Virus record (IMG/VR): IMGVR_UViG_3300021085_000003
Coordinates: 1 to 39,636 of that record
Source of the DNA: a virus
Length of the DNA stretch: 39,636 nucleotides
Reading direction: 5' to 3' (one strand)
Made by a program: the position numbers and the translations under genes. The notes below the pieces were generated by a model. It was not told where the DNA came from, made no database searches, and saw nothing but the letters and a program-made list of their open reading frames with translations. Shown here piece after piece: positions 6,327-38,759 of the stretch. The stretch's first letter is position 1. Each line of letters begins with the position of its first letter.

Positions 6327-6674
6327 TTATGAGAAAATCGTTCTATCTTCTTCGAACAATTCGCCGTTTTCAACCTTGCAAGTGAACCACTCATTGTACT
6401 TGTTCTCAATATCTTCGAGGCTAGTACCGAAAAACTCTTCGCCTGTAATGAACTCCGAAAATATGCACTCAACTTCTTCACCTCTATTGTAGGCGTAGTC
6501 AGCGATTCCGTAACTTACGGGGATATCTTCCGACCAAATATAAATATAGCCGCTATTCTCATTGTACCCTGCTTCACAATACTTGTCAATTACGTGGCCT
6601 TGACGCTCCATTTTTTCGATAACCATTGCAAGGGCTTTGAATTGTGTTGCTGTTTTCAAGTTGGTAGTATTCAT
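6327..6674 (-). CDS. Hypothetical protein, first gene of the minus-strand block
   Basis: 115 residues, acidic and Tyr/Glu-rich (GYNENSGYIYIWSEDIPVSYG). It is the first gene transcribed leftwards from the control region, so it is expected to be expressed immediately after infection. No recognised domain. The ATG lies after an AT-rich TATAAA leader. Confidence 0.6.
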   Translation of the reverse strand: MNTTNLKTATQFKALAMVIEKMERQGHVIDKYCEAGYNENSGYIYIWSEDIPVSYGIADYAYNRGEEVECIFSEFITGEEFFGTSLEDIENKYNEWFTCKVENGELFEEDRTIFS

Positions 6675-7333
6675 TTTATAGATGCCCTTTTAAGGGACTT
6701 ATTAAGTTAGTAAACGGCTAGGGTATTGCTCCCATCGTAAGCCCTCAAGGGCGCCGCTTTAGTAATTTACTTGATGACTTATCATATTGAACAGGTTGAA
6801 AAGGTTTAGTGTTGAGGTCTTAGGTTGCTAGTTATCGCGGTTCATTGTGCGTCCTGTTTAATACTCTGTAGCCTGTTTATGCGGTGTCTCTCTCTCACCC
6901 GTACCCGTTAAACGCCTCGCGGCCTTGCCTTTTCTCCTTGTTTGGGCAGTGTTCACTGCCTTGAATTGATGTAATCGCCTCTCAACCCTTTCGGGGGCTT
7001 TTCAAGTTGGTTAGTGCTATGCTTGATGCTAACCCTCATCGTAACTCGTTGATTTTCAGTGACTTAGAAGCTAAGTGCCTGATTTTCAGTAAGTTAGGTC
7101 TCCTTGGCGGCGGGTCCCGTTGTCCCCGTTTGACAAGTCAAAGAAACGACACTGTGAGTTAATGACCAAATCTAGAGGCTAAGTAGCTGATTATCAGGTA
7201 GTTACAAAATATGTATTTCTCCTAACTCATTGATATTCAAGCAGTTAGCGATTATAGGTCAAATCACTTAACTCGTTGATACTCAGGTAGTTAGGGCTAA
7301 TATTAGGTGTTTTGTCTCAATCTCATTTTTTTT

Positions 7334-7353
7334 TCATAGGTATTTATACCTAT
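7334..7353. promoter_or_regulatory. Operator-like palindrome, box 1
   Basis: Arms ATAGGTAT and ATACCTAT form a perfect 8-bp dyad with a 2-bp spacer (7336-7353), preceded by TC. The CATAGGTAT half recurs at 7705-7713, and once more on the minus strand at 203-211. A repressor or activator site is the likely reading. Confidence 0.5.
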
Positions 7354-7460
7354 ATATCCTCCCCCGTATACAAGTGGACCTAACTCATTGATTATCAGGT
7401 AGTTACATCTAACTCATTGATTATCAGATAGTTAGCTATATATAATCATAATGGATACCC

Positions 7461-7550
7461 GCGCGTACGGACGAGCACAGGCACGGACGCCCGCACACCC
7501 ACCCACGCCCACAGGCGCACGGGCACACACCCACGCACCCACCCGCACAC
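7461..7550. other. C-rich, T-poor island with minus-strand G-quadruplex motif
   Basis: About 90 bp almost free of T on the plus strand, made of CACCCA/CGCACA-like units, in otherwise AT-rich DNA. At 7490-7510 four C3 tracts are spaced 5, 1 and 3 bases apart. The complementary strand therefore has a canonical G3 N1-7 quadruplex motif with loops CGT, T and TGTGC. Three more C3 tracts follow at 7530-7544. It resembles a replication or transcription pausing element. Confidence 0.7.
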
Positions 7551-7703
7551 GTGTACAATAAATATTTGTAACCACCAAACAAAAAGCAATATTTATTTTT
7601 CGGGTCCATATCTGACGATATTAGGACCACCTAACAAAAAGTTTAGGACAGCCTAAAACATACTAAAAAGTGTAACTCATTGACACACAGACACTTACAT
7701 TTG

Positions 7704-7733
7704 TCATAGGTATAAGTACCTAGTGACTAGGTA
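7704..7733. promoter_or_regulatory. Operator-like palindrome, box 2
   Basis: CATAGGTAT at 7705 is followed by the perfect palindrome TACCTAGT-G-ACTAGGTA (7717-7733). It shares the TCATAGGTAT...TACCTA arrangement with box 1 about 370 bp upstream. It lies between dyad repeats 8 and 9. It probably binds the same regulator as box 1. Confidence 0.5.
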
Positions 7734-7919
7734 TATTGTACTACTAAGAAGGAAAACAGGTGCAAAAGTGTAAAGCGTTGATACTTAGGTAGTTAGGTCT
7801 AAATCTGTCTCATTTAAGAGGGTGTTTAATACTACTATTTCACCAATCGAGGTCCGGCATATGTAGGTACCAAAACTACTTCGAGGCTCTTAGAATGGCT
7901 TAAAATGCGTTAAAAAGGC

Positions 7920-8045: not shown

Positions 8046-8226
8046 TTGCCCCAAAGTTTGGATATGACCGGAAAAAATTGTATAGTCGGTAAAGCAGGCT
8101 ACTCGGAGGGGGGATTGGGTTTTTAAAGGGGGTACTAATGCACGAGAAAACCACTTCATTTGAAAACTTGTATAATAATAGATACTATTATAATAATTAG
8201 TATTAGTTTACTCTAATACTATTATA

Positions 8227-8259
8227 ATAATACCTTTACTATGGAAGTAAAGGTATTAT
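8227..8259. promoter_or_regulatory. 14-bp inverted repeat (hairpin) in the late leader
   Basis: ATAATACCTTTACT and AGTAAAGGTATTAT are exact reverse complements around a 5-nt loop ATGGA. No U-tract follows, so an operator, or an RNA hairpin protecting the 5' end, is more likely than a terminator. Confidence 0.6.
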
Positions 8260-8322
8260 AACTTGTTATTATAATAAGGCGGTGGGGGTTAGGGAGTGGT
8301 AATGAATTAAATAATTCAATAC

Positions 8323-8348: not shown

Positions 8349-8633
8349 ATGACGACTAAGCAACTATTAAAGTCCCTAATGGGCACAGGGTTACCTAAGG
8401 GTGATTTAAAGCAGGAGATGTTCTCTTTCTACAATTCTAAGGTGGGTACGAGTAAGCACTTCGTGCGTAAGGAGAACCCGAACACTTCTTGTGGGAGTTG
8501 CATCCAAAGAGTGAAGACCTCTATTTGGAAATGGTATCATCACGATGAGAGTGCGCCCAACTACAAGGGTTTTGTTTTTACGGGTAGGTTTGTAGCTCAT
8601 AGTATGCCTTTATACAATTATGATGAGAAATAA
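8349..8633 (+). CDS. Hypothetical protein upstream of terminase
   Basis: 94 residues, basic. A central CGSC pair (NTSCGSCIQRVKTSIWKWYHH) could bind zinc or form a disulfide. It lies directly before the small terminase gene, overlapping it by 14 bp. I have an impression of similar small proteins at this place in Bacteroidota phages but cannot name a family. It might assist packaging or regulate the operon. Confidence 0.65.
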   Translation: MTTKQLLKSLMGTGLPKGDLKQEMFSFYNSKVGTSKHFVRKENPNTSCGSCIQRVKTSIWKWYHHDESAPNYKGFVFTGRFVAHSMPLYNYDEK

Positions 8634-19543: not shown

Positions 19544-20588
19544 GGATTTACCATTATACGATATTACACTTGAGGATTTTGAGCAGGGAATGTACAAAAT
19601 CTCTCTCGTGGACAAACCTGCGATTGAGGAAAATTTCATATACTTCAACAAAACTGAAGTTGTAGAGATGTTTACCAACGAAGAAAGAAGAGAGGTAGTA
19701 GGACCTATTATGATTCCTAATAAGGAAATCCTACGCCACAGTCCTGAGAACGGATATTACTATGTTAGGTTCACGGAAGATACAATCCGTGATATTATGT
19801 ACAACTACTCTAAGAAAGGTTTGTTCAACGAATTTGGTATTCACCACGAGTACGATACTCAAGATGTGGTGATGCTTGAAGTTTGGATGAAGGAGTCTGA
19901 TAACGATAAGTCAACTGACTATGGTTACGCTCTTCCAAACGGAACTGTATTTGTCAAGGCTAAAATTGAGTCTGACGAATTGTTTAGCGCGATTAAAGAG
20001 GGAGAGGTTAATGGCTTCTCTATCGAAATTCAAGCTGATATTAAACCCGTAAATAATAATAACATGAATGAATTTAATTTTGCTAAAGAGTTAGGCAAGA
20101 TGGAGGCTTCTTTCGAAGCTAACATCTCTAAGTTTGAGGCACAGATTACTGCTTTAGAAGAGGAGAATGCTACTCTTCTAGAAGTGTTGACCTCTTTTGA
20201 AGAGAAGTTCGCAGGTGTAGACGACTTAAAGTCTGCAGTCGAAATGATTCAAAAGCACATCTCTGCAATGGCTGAAAATCACGAAGAAGAAGAAGAGAAG
20301 CCTGAAGAAGAGAAAGAAGAAGAAGAAATGACTGAAGAAAAACCTGAGAAGTACATTGCTCCTGCAGGTGAAGAAGCGGTTGTTGTTGAAAGTAAAGAAG
20401 AAGAAGAAGAAGAAAACAAGTATTCTGCTGAGGAAGAAGTTTCTGAAGAACAAGTTGAGGAGCAATTTGCTGCTGAACAAAAAGCTGAAGAAGTTGCTGA
20501 AACTGTAGAAGACAAGACCGTAGTCTTTAATGCAATTACTGTAGAGAAGGTGAATATGGTTAATGATTTCTTTAACAGATTCAAATAA
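19536..20588 (+). CDS. Prohead protease (XkdF-like, Peptidase S78_2) with Glu-rich scaffold domain
   Basis: 350 residues from ATG 19536, which overlaps the preceding stop; a 25-residue longer reading exists but is unlikely. Residues 1-170 fit the XkdF-like serine protease fold: LVDKPAIEENF at the start, His103-His104 in FGIHHEYD and the nucleophile region GFSIEI with Ser162. Residues 177-350 are a coiled coil (KFEAQITALEEENATLLEVL) followed by a very Glu-rich tail, a scaffold-like region. It cleaves scaffold and capsid proteins during head maturation and precedes the capsid gene. Confidence 0.85.
   Translation: MDKDLPLYDITLEDFEQGMYKISLVDKPAIEENFIYFNKTEVVEMFTNEERREVVGPIMIPNKEILRHSPENGYYYVRFTEDTIRDIMYNYSKKGLFNEFGIHHEYDTQDVVMLEVWMKESDNDKSTDYGYALPNGTVFVKAKIESDELFSAIKEGEVNGFSIEIQADIKPVNNNNMNEFNFAKELGKMEASFEANISKFEAQITALEEENATLLEVLTSFEEKFAGVDDLKSAVEMIQKHISAMAENHEEEEEKPEEEKEEEEMTEEKPEKYIAPAGEEAVVVESKEEEEEENKYSAEEEVSEEQVEEQFAAEQKAEEVAETVEDKTVVFNAITVEKVNMVNDFFNRFK
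20064..20588 (+). other. Possible nested scaffolding protein from an internal start
   Basis: In-frame ATG at 20064 (residue 177 of the protease ORF) directly after an A-rich AAATAATAATAAC leader, the kind that precedes genuine starts in this genome. It would yield the 174-residue coiled-coil/Glu-rich part alone, as lambda Nu3 is made from within gene C. This is an inference from the leader and the domain boundary. Confidence 0.4.
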
Positions 20589-20589
20589 A

Positions 20590-20599
20590 TTGTAAATTA
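20590..20599 (+). promoter_or_regulatory. TTGTAAATTA box before the capsid gene
   Basis: Exact copy, 32 bp before the capsid ATG at 20632, in a gene-free AT-rich leader; the best placed of the boxes for a promoter. Confidence 0.4.
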
Positions 20600-20631
20600 A
20601 TTAAAACGAACTTTTTTAAAACTAAATAAAA

Positions 20632-21519
20632 ATGGCTGTATCTATTTCTAATTTGCCTTATGGCGACCGTAGTCGTGACTTGTTCATCGATGCTATGGTA
20701 AAATCGGCAGCGGTTCTTAACCGTTTCCGTCTTATCGATGGTGTTAAAGCAAAGGTTAACGTACCTATCTTTGACGCTGCATTAACTTTTGGCACAGACA
20801 TCTGTGCTTGGGACCCTCAATCTACTGCTAGTATCGGTGAGAAAGAGATGACTGTATCTGATTACAAGTGGTCTTTCTTAAACTGTAAAACTGCACTAGA
20901 AGGTTCTTACCGTGGTCTTTTGTTAAAGAAAGGTCAACACAACCCTGAGACTATGGACGCTGAGTTCAAGGATTGGGTATTTGATTACTTCGCTAAATTG
21001 TCTGCTCAAAAAGCATTAACTCTTGCTGCTACTGAATTAGCTACTGAGATGACAGGTGATGCTGACGTAATCGACAACGTGATTGCAGGTGGTATTACTT
21101 CTGCTAACGTGTTAGACCATATGGAAGCTGCTTACGCTCTTATGAGCGCGGATATGTTGTCTGCCGTTTACGGAGACGCTGACCGTGATTTCAAACCTGC
21201 TTTCTTCTTGGGAACTGCTGCTATGCAGGCTTACCAAATTGCTATCGCTGAGAAGTTCACTACTACTCCACAGGGTATTGTAGAAGGTAACATCCCTCCT
21301 TACTTCGGTATGGAAGTTGTACACTTCGCTTCTTTAGCTGCAGGACAATTTATATTGTGTGCTCCACAAAACTTGGTTATGTTGACTGACGACTACAACG
21401 ATGTACGTGCAATCGATATGAAGTACGAACCTGAATTGTCAAGCGACAAGATTTGGGGTCAGTTCAAGTTAGGTTTCTCTTACCTCAAAGGTGACGAAAT
21501 CGTTTACACTCACGCATAA
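20632..21519 (+). CDS. Major capsid protein
   Basis: 295 residues, following the protease/scaffold gene and closed by a strong terminator, the usual setting of the most highly expressed head gene. The pattern fits an HK97-fold subunit: helical N-terminal arm (SRDLFIDAMVKSAAVLNRF), spine helix (DWVFDYFAKLSAQKALTLAA), A-domain and C-terminal strand (DKIWGQFKLGFSYLKGDEIV). Asp-, Ala- and Tyr-rich with two-base codon regularity typical of strong expression. Synthesis probably starts from its own 40-base leader. Confidence 0.85.
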   Translation: MAVSISNLPYGDRSRDLFIDAMVKSAAVLNRFRLIDGVKAKVNVPIFDAALTFGTDICAWDPQSTASIGEKEMTVSDYKWSFLNCKTALEGSYRGLLLKKGQHNPETMDAEFKDWVFDYFAKLSAQKALTLAATELATEMTGDADVIDNVIAGGITSANVLDHMEAAYALMSADMLSAVYGDADRDFKPAFFLGTAAMQAYQIAIAEKFTTTPQGIVEGNIPPYFGMEVVHFASLAAGQFILCAPQNLVMLTDDYNDVRAIDMKYEPELSSDKIWGQFKLGFSYLKGDEIVYTHA

Positions 21520-26023: not shown

Positions 26024-27726
26024 AAAGGGGTGATATAGTGAGTATCGTGGGAGCTATGGTTAGCGACTACGGTGGGCAAAGCTGTATTGTACCTGTAACT
26101 AAAAGAGGTCGAAGCAACACTATCGTTAACAGCGGAAGCGGTGAGTATGATGGTGGAGATAGAGTCATTGGATTCCCTAACGGATTTGAGGTAGATGGCG
26201 ACCTGCTTTTTACGGTAGGTTGGGGTGATGGCTTTGCAGTACGCAGGTTGAATAATGATGGAACAATGACAAGATTGTTTTACGAGAATAACTTCCTGTA
26301 TAGAGACACGACATCTAGTTACAACCACCTGCAGTCTGTAGCGATTGATACTATAAACAAAAAAGGTGTGGCTATGACATATAATGTCGATGGATACACA
26401 ACTTTTGATTATAGTGGTTTAATGAACGGAGGTACTACGTTTGTAAAAAACGAACGTCCTACACACTCTAACCCTCAAAGATTTATAAACGAAGGAGGAA
26501 TGAATCTTTCTTCAGCAGGTCTTTACTATACTAGCGGCTTAGTAGCTGCAGGTCCTTGGATTTATCTAGGAGAGTATGACGCAAGACACTATCAAAAGTA
26601 TCCGCGTAGAAACATAAACACAGGCTCAGAAGAGATTCTTACTTGGGAAGAGAATGGAAAGACGGGTACCGCTAATGACGACAGAAACGGTTACAGGCAC
26701 ACATTGTTTTATGACGAAGTAAACGATAGGGTTTTTTATTGTTCGTATTACAATGCTAACTTTATGATGATAGAAGATGCTTCTACGTCTGACCCTAAGT
26801 TAGTATGGTGTGACCTAGGAGATGCAGGTGCAGGTGATGATGCTTACGAGCAGGGGTTGCACATAGAAGACCCTGTTAATTATCCAAACATTATGACCGT
26901 AGGCGCCTCGGGTCGCCACGTTAAGATTGATATTTCACCTTGTCAAACAGGAACGAGGCCAACGATAATATCTACAATATACGAAACAGACAATAATAAA
27001 AAAGGACAATCTTTTGCTAACCTTTTTAGACTAGGTACAAAGTATCAAGATGCGACTACAGGTCGCCCTACTGATAAAATGCCCGGATATCCTGAGTTTA
27101 ACCCGATATCTCCTGACAGGGGTAGAGCAATGGGACACGGTTGGATTGATTGGGACAATGGAAGATTAGTATCTGTTTACAGATATAACACAAAAACAGA
27201 AGACACCACAAGTCTTGGTAGAGGAGCGACATATATGTCGGACTATGGCTCTCCTTGTTTTAGAATGTACTCCGCAAACGGGAGTGAGTTTTGGGTGCAG
27301 TTAGGATACGGATACAACGGACACAGCATCCATACTTGGGGCAGTGAGTACAAGAATCATATGTTCGAAAATTGGTCTGTCGAGTATGGCACATACAATT
27401 TAGATAATAACGCAAATGTTGATTTTGTTTATTGGTCAAAATCAGACTACTTTATTCCTAGCGGTTGCTCTTTAGGAGCTTTTGTCAGCAATAATGCAGG
27501 TGAAACTTGGGAGGCGTACACCGGTGATGAAGATACAGAACACATTTTTTCTTCTACAGGGAGTCAATTAAGAATAAAAATCACAGGTTCGGGAGACGTT
27601 TCCAAAAACGCTTACCGAATGTCTACTGCTAATGATGTGGTTTTATTTGGCACAATGTATGAGGCACAAAAAGACTCTGATGTAAGAACCAAGATAAGTA
27701 AATTTTCACTAAGAGGTAAAAAATAA
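26002..27726 (+). CDS. Large receptor-binding-like tail protein (possible beta-propeller)
   Basis: 574 residues, Gly/Asp/Tyr/Asn-rich, no coiled coil. Repeated short blade-like segments ([74 protein letters not shown]) suggest a beta-propeller in residues 40-400. The C-terminal [20 protein letters not shown] resembles a BNR/Asp-box (S-x-D-x-G-x-T-W-like). A glycan-binding or glycosidase-like receptor function is plausible; catalytic residues were not identified. Confidence 0.6.
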
Positions 27727-29648
27727 TGGCTACAGTTTCAGGAAGTAAAAGAAAAAAGAATATAAGTGCGTTGCAAGTTGGTGGCCAAGACGTTGCTACA
27801 GAATCGTATGTGAATAATCAAGGGTACCTTACCACAGAAACAGATAGTCAAACATTATCTATAAGCGGTACAACTCTTTCTCTTCAGAACGGGGGCTCTG
27901 TTACATTACCTACAAGCACAGGACCTCAGGGTGAAGAAGGGCCTCAGGGTCCTACAGGAGATACAGGAGCTACAGGAGCTACAGGGCCTCAGGGAGCGAC
28001 AGGGCCTCAAGGCGGAACAGGGCCTCAAGGACCTCAAGGACCGGACGGACCCGAAGGACCCGAAGGACCACAAGGACCTAGGGGTGATGAAGGCGGAACA
28101 GGACCGCAAGGTCCACAGGGAAGCACCGGAGCTACAGGAGCTGCAGGGGCTACAGGTGGTATTGGTCCTCAAGGTCCTCAGGGAGCTACAGGAGCTACAG
28201 GTGGTGTTGGACCTCAAGGTCCTCAGGGAGATACGGGAGCTACAGGTGCTGTTGGGCCGGAAGGTCCACAGGGAGATACAGGCGCTACAGGTGCTACAGG
28301 CCCTCAAGGTGAGATAGGCGAGGTTGGAGAACAGGGAAATCCCGGAGCCACAGGAGCTACGGGTCCACAAGGACCTCAAGGAGCTACAGGCCCTCAAGGT
28401 GCTACAGGAGGTATAGGCCCCGAAGGTCCTCAAGGCGATACAGGAAGCACGGGTCCTCAAGGCCCTCAAGGTGCTACCGGAGCCACAGGTTCCACAGGAC
28501 CACAAGGACCCGCAGGCCCTGATGGGCCGCAAGGAGATACAGGTGCACAAGGAGCACAGGGTCCCCAAGGAGATATTGGACCTGAAGGTGCTAGAGGTGA
28601 CGAAGGTGGAACAGGGCCTCAGGGCCCCGCAGGTCCTGCAGGTTCTGCAGGAGCTACAGGTCCACAAGGTCCTGCCGGAAGCAGCGGTTCTGATGGGAAC
28701 TCTGTGACTAATGCTTCTTTGCAAAACTATGAGTTAGTCTTAGAGATTGAAAATGTCGGAGAGGTTAATGTAGGTAATGTTCGAGGTGCAACAGGTGCGG
28801 CAGGTAGTAACGGTTCAGCAGGGGCTACGGGCCCACAAGGTGCTACAGGTCCACAAGGCCCCGCAGGGGACGAGGGGCCACAAGGTGACGCAGGAGCTAC
28901 AGGCCCACAAGGACCCGCAGGCCCCGCAGGAGCAGCGGGAGCAGCAGGTGCCACGGGTGCTGAAGGACCACAGGGGGATGCCGGTCCGCAGGGACCTGCA
29001 GGAAGTACAGGAGCAACGGGCCCGCAAGGTCCCGCAGGTAGTACAGGTAGTACAGGAGCAGCCGGTCCCGAGGGGCCACAAGGAGATGCGGGTGCGACAG
29101 GAGCCACAGGACCTCAGGGACCTCAGGGAGACGCAGGGGCAACAGGAGCAACAGGGCCGCAAGGACCTGCCGGAAGTAATGGTACTAACGGAACCAATGG
29201 TTCAAATGGGTCTATGTACGGTCCTGACAAGTATTTATTCCAAACATCAGCAACGTACACTAGCTCAAATGCTAAGATATCAATAAACGCTCAAGAGATT
29301 AACGGAAGCACAAACACAAGTTTAGCAAGTAACAGAATAACATTTGGCTCCGCAGGAACATACTTGATTTCTTGGAACATAAATTGGCAATCTCTATATG
29401 CTAACCGAAGCACTTTTGGTGCTACGGCTAAATTGAACGGGGTAACGATTTCAGGAGGAACTAACTTGCAGTATTTTAGATACAATACATACGGTCATAA
29501 AAGTACCACGAATACATCTTTTGCGATAACTGTAACAGCAAATCAGTATTTAGAGTTTTTTACTTTCCTTCACGCAGGGTCAGTAAATCACAAGGTGACT
29601 AGCACGAACGGAGATGGTGGGGCGATAACAGTAATGAGAATAGTATAA
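27726..29648 (+). CDS. Collagen-like tail fibre with C1q/TNF-like tip
   Basis: 640 residues. Residues 1-65 form a beta-like attachment segment. Gly-X-Y repeats run from Gly66 to about residue 325 (roughly 86 triplets), mostly GPQ, GAT and GxP. A non-collagen insert of about 28 residues ([19 protein letters not shown]) follows, then a second Gly-X-Y block 354-494 (about 47 triplets) and a C-terminal 144-residue beta domain ([38 protein letters not shown]) like BclA/C1q heads. It should form a long trimeric rod with a binding tip. DNA in the block is GC-rich and internally repetitive. Confidence 0.85.
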
Positions 29649-37236: not shown

Positions 37237-38119
37237 CTAGTTCGTAATATCTGTTAGACAATTTATCAAAATATAAAGTAACGGTTCCTAGCTTACCGAC
37301 AATCTTCGGCTTGGCTTTAACCACAGTAATCTCAACTTGGTTAGCCTCGTAAGGAATACCGTTCCCATCTTCAAGACCAAAGGGGCAACGCCATACGTTG
37401 ACAACCATCATACCTTTACGGCTCCACTGCATACCTCCTGCGATATCGTTCATCGTAGGCTTGTCGACATACGGCACTCCGTTCTTGTACTTAGCTTGTT
37501 GATGTCTAGTGTGTACAGTTACAATCGTGTGGTAATCTCTATCAGCAGAATGCTTACGAACTTTTGTAAGGACCTGACCAATAGCAATATCATCACGAAC
37601 TCCTGCGGATACATCCGTCTTGATTTCGGTAAAGGGGTCAACTAAACATCCGTCAATCTTAATGAAGTTATCATTCTCAATCTTCTCAACTGAGGTATAG
37701 AACGCTTCGATACTTAGGTCCTGCAGACCTGAGTCAATAATATAGAAGTGCTTATTGATAAACTCAATGGCCGATTCAGTCTCTTCATCGGTAGCCGTAA
37801 TCTTGTCGTTCACTAGGAACGGCTTGCGTAAATACACCCAAAGCAATTCCGCAAACACCTCGGTAGGAGAGCCCGTCTCCGGAGAGTATATAGCCCACTT
37901 CCAACCGTCATATTCAGCTAGGTTCATCATCAACTCGAATCCGAACTGAGACTTACCTTGGTGAGCTCCTGCGTAGATGTACGTGGTGGACCCACGCTTA
38001 ACTGAATACTTATCGAACAGGGAACTGAATCCTGTCCAAGCACCTTTCTTGATTCCGTTGTTACGGAGTGTGGTTAACGAGTCTCTCAGTTCGTTAGCCG
38101 TATAAATTAATTTTTGCAT
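37190..38119 (-). CDS. DnaB-like replicative helicase core (no N-terminal domain)
   Basis: 309 residues. RecA-fold with Walker A AGAHQGKS (about 50-57), AIYSPE (switch), Walker B region DGCLVDPF (Asp161), and TVHTRH (His203), the order of the DnaB C-terminal domain. DnaB is about 470 residues with an N-terminal primase-binding domain; that part is absent here. It would unwind the fork using a host primase or loader. It is the largest replication gene; no polymerase or primase was found. Confidence 0.8.
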   Translation of the reverse strand: MQKLIYTANELRDSLTTLRNNGIKKGAWTGFSSLFDKYSVKRGSTTYIYAGAHQGKSQFGFELMMNLAEYDGWKWAIYSPETGSPTEVFAELLWVYLRKPFLVNDKITATDEETESAIEFINKHFYIIDSGLQDLSIEAFYTSVEKIENDNFIKIDGCLVDPFTEIKTDVSAGVRDDIAIGQVLTKVRKHSADRDYHTIVTVHTRHQQAKYKNGVPYVDKPTMNDIAGGMQWSRKGMMVVNVWRCPFGLEDGNGIPYEANQVEITVVKAKPKIVGKLGTVTLYFDKLSNRYYELDEQGRKRFAYSQPNS

Positions 38120-38134
38120 CTGTCCTTAGTTTTT

Positions 38135-38413
38135 TTATTTTTTATAATCAGTTTCTTTGTGAGCAAAGCTCTTACTTAATGGCTGCCTACTCAATTCATC
38201 AGATACGTGGAAGTCAAATACTTTCTTGCCTGTGAGTTTAAGCGAGGCCATTAGATTTAAAATCATCTCGGGGCTTGAGTTCATATCCTCAATGCTTTTC
38301 ATTCTTGTAGGTAACTCCATCGTCCGGTAATGATTCACATACCCGTTCCCTCTTTTAATCTTGTAGGCAATCTTGATTTTCACGAAGTAAATCATTTGTC
38401 CTTCATCATCCAT
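38135..38413 (-). CDS. Hypothetical protein
   Basis: 92 residues, basic, mixed beta/alpha (QMIYFVKIKIAYKIKRGNGY). It overlaps the GIY-YIG gene by 8 bp and lies 15 bp before the helicase. No motif recognised; the basic N-terminus could bind nucleic acid. Confidence 0.5.
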   Translation of the reverse strand: MDDEGQMIYFVKIKIAYKIKRGNGYVNHYRTMELPTRMKSIEDMNSSPEMILNLMASLKLTGKKVFDFHVSDELSRQPLSKSFAHKETDYKK

Positions 38414-38759
38414 TCTTCTTATGATTTTTATAGTTAAAACCTTCGTAGCCCATAGCGTGCAATTTGGTTTCCATTAAGTGACAATCCACAGCTCTATCAA
38501 ATGTGGCAATTACCTCGAAGCCATCAGTTATCTTTTTACCTTTGCTTCTGTGTTCTTGCATCCTATCTTTAAGGCAGTTGGTCATCCCTACATAGTGATG
38601 TTCAGGTATATAATACAATGTATAATGTCCATCTCTAATCCTCTTTCTCTTTTTAAAGTAAGTGGATTTACAGGATTTACATTCAGTCCTGTGCCCTGTA
38701 CCATTTCTGTGGTACTCGCTCAGGGGTTTATTGTCTCCACATATCCTGCACTCCCTCAT
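38406..38759 (-). CDS. GIY-YIG nuclease with N-terminal zinc ribbon
   Basis: 117 residues. Residues 1-32 hold two CxxC pairs (CRICGDNKP...CKSCKS), a zinc ribbon common in phage homing-type enzymes. Residues about 45-100 carry YTLYYIPEHHYVGMT (the GIY...YVG core), DRMQEHRS with Arg and His, and MESLHAMGY-like METKLHAMGY with the catalytic Glu. It may be a free-standing homing nuclease or a repair enzyme. No intron or split gene was seen next to it. Confidence 0.75.
   Translation of the reverse strand: MRECRICGDNKPLSEYHRNGTGHRTECKSCKSTYFKKRKRIRDGHYTLYYIPEHHYVGMTNCLKDRMQEHRSKGKKITDGFEVIATFDRAVDCHLMETKLHAMGYEGFNYKNHKKNG

Follow-up and report, generated by a model that had tools for sequence, protein, structure and literature searches.

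Phage lambda places three operators at each promoter and four iterons inside its O gene, and the proteins that read them come from the same phage. The locus described here, in a virus record of 39,636 bp (IMGVR_UViG_3300021085_000003; the whole of this stretch is referred to as the window), shares with those sites the clustering of near-identical, two-fold symmetric elements at divergent promoters or an origin, although the lambda sites are not known to have spread to unrelated phages. The stoperators of cluster A mycobacteriophages such as L5 and TipsytheTRex, asymmetric 13-mers read by a phage-encoded monomer, likewise repeat one short site many times within a phage genome, both at promoters and in small gaps between genes (PMC9283540); the element of the window is instead a dyad of 25 bp whose distribution follows that of no phage protein. 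The extended start-associated sequences (ESAS) of cluster K mycobacteriophages are 17-bp inverted repeats lying 4-13 bp apart beside translation starts, and their function is not known (PMC3203893). They resemble our dyads in that paired inverted repeats recur ahead of non-structural genes and have no ligand assigned, but they are confined to one phage cluster, whereas the 25-bp dyads occur in unrelated phages and in plasmids.

Multi-site operators are already known as a kind of control element, and the dyad may work like one. A literature search by the dyad sequence string returned unrelated matches only, and a search by topic returned no matching description. We interpret the nine dyads of the window as a multi-site operator whose ligand would be a dimeric DNA-binding protein of Bacteroidota, probably encoded by the host, and give this reading a probability of about 0.5.

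The dyad array and its control region

A pattern scan of the window recovered all nine near-symmetric dyads reported by the first-pass annotation, at 7042-7795, and a reversed-pattern control gave no matches. They follow the consensus TAASTnnYTGAnnnTCARnnASTTA (25 bp, or 27 bp with the outer S), seven of the nine without a mismatch (Table 1), and no further copy with up to three mismatches was found in the rest of the 39.6-kb record; at up to four mismatches there are 16 places in the window, compared with 2-7 in its first-order resamples. The start-to-start distances are 30, 108, 43, 46, 112, 29, 263, and 98 bp, and no helical period is evident in the spacing of the nine. The annotation had also assigned the dyads one shared orientation, which means little for an element so nearly symmetric: by half-site score, the left half is the stronger in six dyads and the right half in the three at 7072, 7180, and 7771.

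Table 1. Features of the control region of the window (mismatches are to the 25-bp consensus)
Feature	Start	End	Sequence	Remarks
Noncoding control region with array	6675	8348		1.67-kb gap; last start of minus-strand block at 6674, first start of plus-strand block at 8349
Dyad 1	7042	7066	TAACTCGTTGATTTTCAGTGACTTA	0 mismatches; also present in L142
Dyad 2	7072	7096	TAAGTGCCTGATTTTCAGTAAGTTA	0 mismatches; right half stronger
Dyad 3	7180	7204	TAAGTAGCTGATTATCAGGTAGTTA	0 mismatches; right half stronger
Dyad 4	7223	7247	TAACTCATTGATATTCAAGCAGTTA	0 mismatches
Dyad 5	7269	7293	TAACTCGTTGATACTCAGGTAGTTA	0 mismatches
Dyad 6	7381	7405	TAACTCATTGATTATCAGGTAGTTA	0 mismatches
Dyad 7	7410	7434	TAACTCATTGATTATCAGATAGTTA	0 mismatches
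GC-rich, C-rich tract	7456	7553	CACACCCACGC-like repeats	98 bp, in the interval between dyads 7 and 8; surroundings AT-rich
Dyad 8	7673	7697	TAACTCATTGACACACAGACACTTA	1 mismatch
Dyad 9	7771	7795	TAAAGCGTTGATACTTAGGTAGTTA	3 mismatches; L142 counterpart scores 2 mismatches

The whole array lies within one gap between divergent transcription blocks, as had been described. The minus-strand block encodes DnaA-IV-like, sigma-like, and PD-(D/E)XK proteins, and the plus-strand block consists of packaging and structural genes. We found no recognisable promoter next to the dyads in the control region, which counts against the operator reading. The control region contains other repeated elements. Ahead of the packaging genes there is an AT-rich block (8168-8279) in which ATACTATTATAATAAT occurs in both direct and inverted orientation. 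The block is conserved (77-89% identity) among array carriers as well as in many array-free relatives by large terminase (TerL), and is a candidate promoter, operator, or origin in its own right. A second, 16-bp palindrome, TAGGTATnnrTACCTA, occurs twice in the window (7337-7353 and 7706-7722); L142, L164, and L130 have retained the copy at 7706, and the palindrome is perhaps the operator of another regulator. Elsewhere in the window, 27726-29648 encodes a collagen-like protein with long Gly-X-Y repeats, which accounts for a 60% GC island at 28-29 kb.

The copies of the dyad were gathered by patterns that demand many of its letters, and the fixed letters of the collection therefore reflect the search, the informative positions being those left free. 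Of 1369 left halves, 1365 have C or T at position 8; at position 4, where the search fixed the other letters, 526 of 534 have C or G. The nearly fixed letters of the half-site are T1 A2 A3 S4 T5 Y8 T9 G10 A11. Beyond this core, position -2 is mostly C or T and position -1 is rarely T, so the site spans 25-29 bp. The two halves conform to one half-site consensus, and in about 500 copies from outside the window they vary nearly independently: facing letters show no excess of matches at positions 4, 7, and 8 and match less often than chance at position 12, and position 6 alone has a clear excess, in one of two phage sets only. Such near-independence argues for the site of a dimeric protein rather than a hairpin, and the dyad is most likely a protein-binding site of this kind with one subunit per half, in agreement with the symmetric DNA-binding protein that the first-pass annotation had suggested. 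That annotation dismissed an RNA hairpin on the grounds that the centre is too tight, but the centre could form a 3-nt loop; we reject a hairpin or terminator instead for the lack of covariation between the arms, together with an Rfam search that matched nothing at the elements.

A dif/Xer site was also considered and rejected. In the dif layout a centre of 6-8 bp separates two arms of 11 bp each (PMC3091885), and such a site is usually present once; dif-like sites of Bacteroidetes are flanking single sites (PMC3091885); the dyad has a 3-bp centre and is present in up to nine copies.

The array varies greatly among TerL relatives of the window phage, with nine dyads in L142, seven in L164, three in L130 (at a contig edge), two in L129, and one in L147; L131, L133, L150, L157, L168, L176, and others have the region and no dyad. 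Absence from relatives with the same genes, which the first-pass annotation regarded as evidence against a functional array, applies to some relatives and not to others, and the array-free close relatives do count against the operator reading. In six of them we found no replacement array comparable to the dyads. In L164, dyads remain perfect at places whose flanking sequence can no longer be aligned, so selection apparently acts on the dyads themselves.

Distribution in phages, plasmids, and bacterial genomes

The strict pattern matches more than 120 IMG/VR stretches among the matches listed, and the reversed pattern matches none in IMG/VR. The sites are arranged in one of three ways. Some form irregular arrays, in which the distance from dyad to dyad ranges from 25 to about 200 bp, others form exact 50-bp pairs, and others stand singly; dyads may abut at 25 bp. 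The 50-bp pairs comprise 252 non-redundant units in 86 loci; mean GC content is 89% for their 25-bp spacer and 42% for the loci. The GC-rich tract of the window, which is missing from L142 and L164, bears only a resemblance to these spacers. In 72 of 419 outward flanks, TTGAC lies exactly 39 bp outside the dyad, compared with about three per distance; it flanks 54 units on one side or both, and 16 of these on both. This TTGAC is part of a sigma70-like promoter directed toward the dyad and frequent in 50-bp units, and if the promoter is spaced in the usual way, it would place the dyad at about +4 to +29, just past the transcription start, in the classic position of a repressor.

In L028, L066, L082, L050, and other loci of this type, dyad-spacer-dyad units are repeated at intervals of 1-2 kb between early-type genes, and promoters often face inward from both sides of these composite units. 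Two of the loci also have short minus-strand matches to a tmRNA model that skip its middle (L028 5996-6061 and L066 6437-6501), and ARAGORN finds no tmRNA at either place.

The leaders of carrier phages are poor in Shine-Dalgarno sequences, being close to shuffled leaders, and resemble those of phage BT24, unlike those of lambda. Such leaders fit Bacteroidota hosts without amounting to proof; the carriers probably infect Bacteroidota, and we infer a host from this phylum for the window phage as well.

BT24 (L395), a cultured phage of Bacteroides thetaiotaomicron VPI-5482, has degenerate dyads in its two largest gaps: sites 20624, 20868, and 20932 precede the exonuclease, SSB, polymerase, and helicase genes, and sites 37859, 37991, 38178, and 38241 precede terminase. 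A promoter of the Bacteroides type, TTG-19-TATCTTTG, is present at 21040 in the early gap. The BT24 dyads do not overlap a recognised promoter and lie at least 84 bp upstream of it, which counts against the operator reading and indicates that their role need not be simple steric repression. The early region is common to 55 Bacteroides phage records, and among the substitutions seen on aligning six phages, several stay within the consensus (A/G at 18 and C/G at 22) and others break it. Both gaps (20566-21299 and 37552-38439) also have GGATAGAT/ATCTATCC repeats between the dyads, possibly the site of a second regulator.

Among GTDB genomes, a tandem dyad pattern was matched in two Cytophagales MAGs only. 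One of the two, the Microscillaceae MAG Prado074 (G063, 6.8 Mb), contains 921 exact copies (control, 0) and 5802 loose copies, with dyads in most intergenic gaps of the loci read and some of them inside MITE-like repeats that have terminal inverted repeats and end in CAATATGTGTGACA; one tandem array with a 46-bp period lies in L248. Numbers and settings like these would suit a mobile or structural repeat of the REP, MITE, or hairpin type that has no dedicated regulator. We regard this as highly improbable for the dyads, given the near absence of covariation between halves, the lack of any Rfam match at the elements, the fixed promoter geometry of the 50-bp units, and the absence of the REP-type transposase (PF01797) from the phage records searched. 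Low-copy palindromes in other Microscillaceae are probably a different thing, several being parts of longer AT-rich hairpins.

For a host-encoded ligand, clear sites might be expected in host chromosomes, yet 293 of the 295 other Bacteroidota genomes sampled have no exact copy and two have one each, which counts against such a ligand. With three mismatches allowed, some Bacteroidota genomes exceed their control (24 versus 4, 17 versus 2, and 11 versus 1), an excess that is only suggestive.

In three Saprospira plasmids and in Persicobacter pPPrrn, a dyad precedes rep by about 250-335 bp and stands next to iterons; it is clean in the plasmid of S. grandis WH and in pPPrrn, whereas the remaining two plasmids have it with one or two mismatches. 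Sites that are weaker or consist of one half were picked up in additional Bacteroidota plasmids by low-significance BLAST hits and are leads only. The position beside rep raises the alternative that the dyads are themselves replication iterons, that is, initiator or origin-accessory sites of a phage origin, recognised by a protein of either the phage or its host. This would agree with the cumulative GC skew of the window, which is lowest at about 7-8 kb, and with the BT24 cluster that precedes replication genes. However, the skew minimum coincides with the point of transcription divergence, the second BT24 cluster precedes terminase, the 50-bp units recurring along some phages are too frequent for origins, the window has no DnaA box (TTATCCACA), and relatives with the same replication genes lack the array. 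We think it unlikely that the dyads are iterons, although this reading and that of a phage-encoded regulator are the two chief rivals of the operator. The first-pass annotation had offered both iterons and a multi-site operator; the BT24 sites ahead of early and terminase genes and the regular promoters at 50-bp units favour the operator, and the rep-side plasmid sites leave room for a role in replication.

Candidate ligands

The two DnaA-IV-like proteins of the window had been put forward as ligands, and the resemblance is real: against the Pfam model of DnaA domain IV, the 2490-2948 protein scores 36.3 bits (above cut-off) and the 486-914 protein 22.6 bits (below). Nevertheless, some phages that lack the array also encode relatives of one or both proteins, and DnaA domain IV reads an asymmetric 9-mer; with the lack of a DnaA box, this leads us to set these candidates aside.

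Each phage may instead encode a small, fast-evolving regulator that binds its dyads, as in lambda or L5, and that similarity searches miss. Arrays are gained and lost among close relatives, as such a regulator might predict, small DNA-binding proteins diverge fast, and many of the contigs are fragments. One gene, 1613-1939, is present in four of four carriers and in none of six non-carriers of the TerL group, with one non-carrier sequence incomplete (G018, whose control region is at the contig end, was left out of the non-carriers). Its product looks acidic, unlike a DNA-binding protein, and its distribution may reflect shared ancestry only, so we take it as weak evidence. All-against-all comparison, profile searches, and comparison with BT24 revealed no protein family common to unrelated carriers, nor did family scans beside 16 arrays find one. 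One site specificity is, moreover, maintained across unrelated phages with different gene sets, and a separate regulator in each phage seems to us a rather doubtful explanation.

A further candidate is a host DNABII protein of the IHF/HU family that bends DNA at the dyads. The IHF consensus of Escherichia coli is WATCARnnnnTTR, and IHF sites occur near plasmid origins and phage promoters. The right half of the dyad approximates this consensus, and the half-site partly fits it on both strands. The dyads differ from it in being palindromic, and we know of no IHF precedent for two overlapping inverted sites; only about half of the half-sites have the A that WATCAR requires as its second letter, two of the four free letters of nnnn are nearly fixed, as A and S, and dyads packed at 25 bp are closer than a footprint of about 35 bp permits. 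We consider IHF-like sites very unlikely. No phage-encoded HU/IHF protein (PF00216) scored above cut-off in the phage records, with one weak match in G049.

Since unrelated phages, plasmids, and one bacterial genome share the site and no protein was found to track it, the ligand is most likely host-encoded; a host protein is the simplest remaining source, and a diverged small phage protein is a less probable one.

Proposed control by a dimeric regulator

In the multi-site operator that we favour, each 25-29-bp element would bind one dimer of a sequence-specific protein, with each subunit reading one half-site, Y-S-T-A-A-S-T-c-n-Y-T-G-A, and the half-sites meeting across a 3-bp, mostly A/T centre. 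The protein would likely come from the Bacteroidota host, or else be a small, fast-changing, exchanged protein that similarity searches have missed. Occupancy of several sites would set transcription of the early/replication block, the packaging/structural block, or both, and we infer that binding controls transcription in the window phage. More tentatively, a new host protein of Bacteroidota may read the 25-29-bp dyad generally, and unrelated phages and plasmids may repeatedly have adopted the dyad in early, replication, and late control regions, including the 25-25-25 units with their GC-rich core between inward promoters.

Gene timing in Bacteroidota phages is little understood, and the sharing of one site between plasmids and phages of both the environment and the gut points to a single regulator common to them. 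It could be sought in B. thetaiotaomicron, whose cultured phages BT24 and relatives carry degenerate copies of the dyad. If encoded by the host, the regulator would be a dependence common to many mobile elements; if encoded by phages, it would be a widely exchanged regulator that annotation has overlooked.
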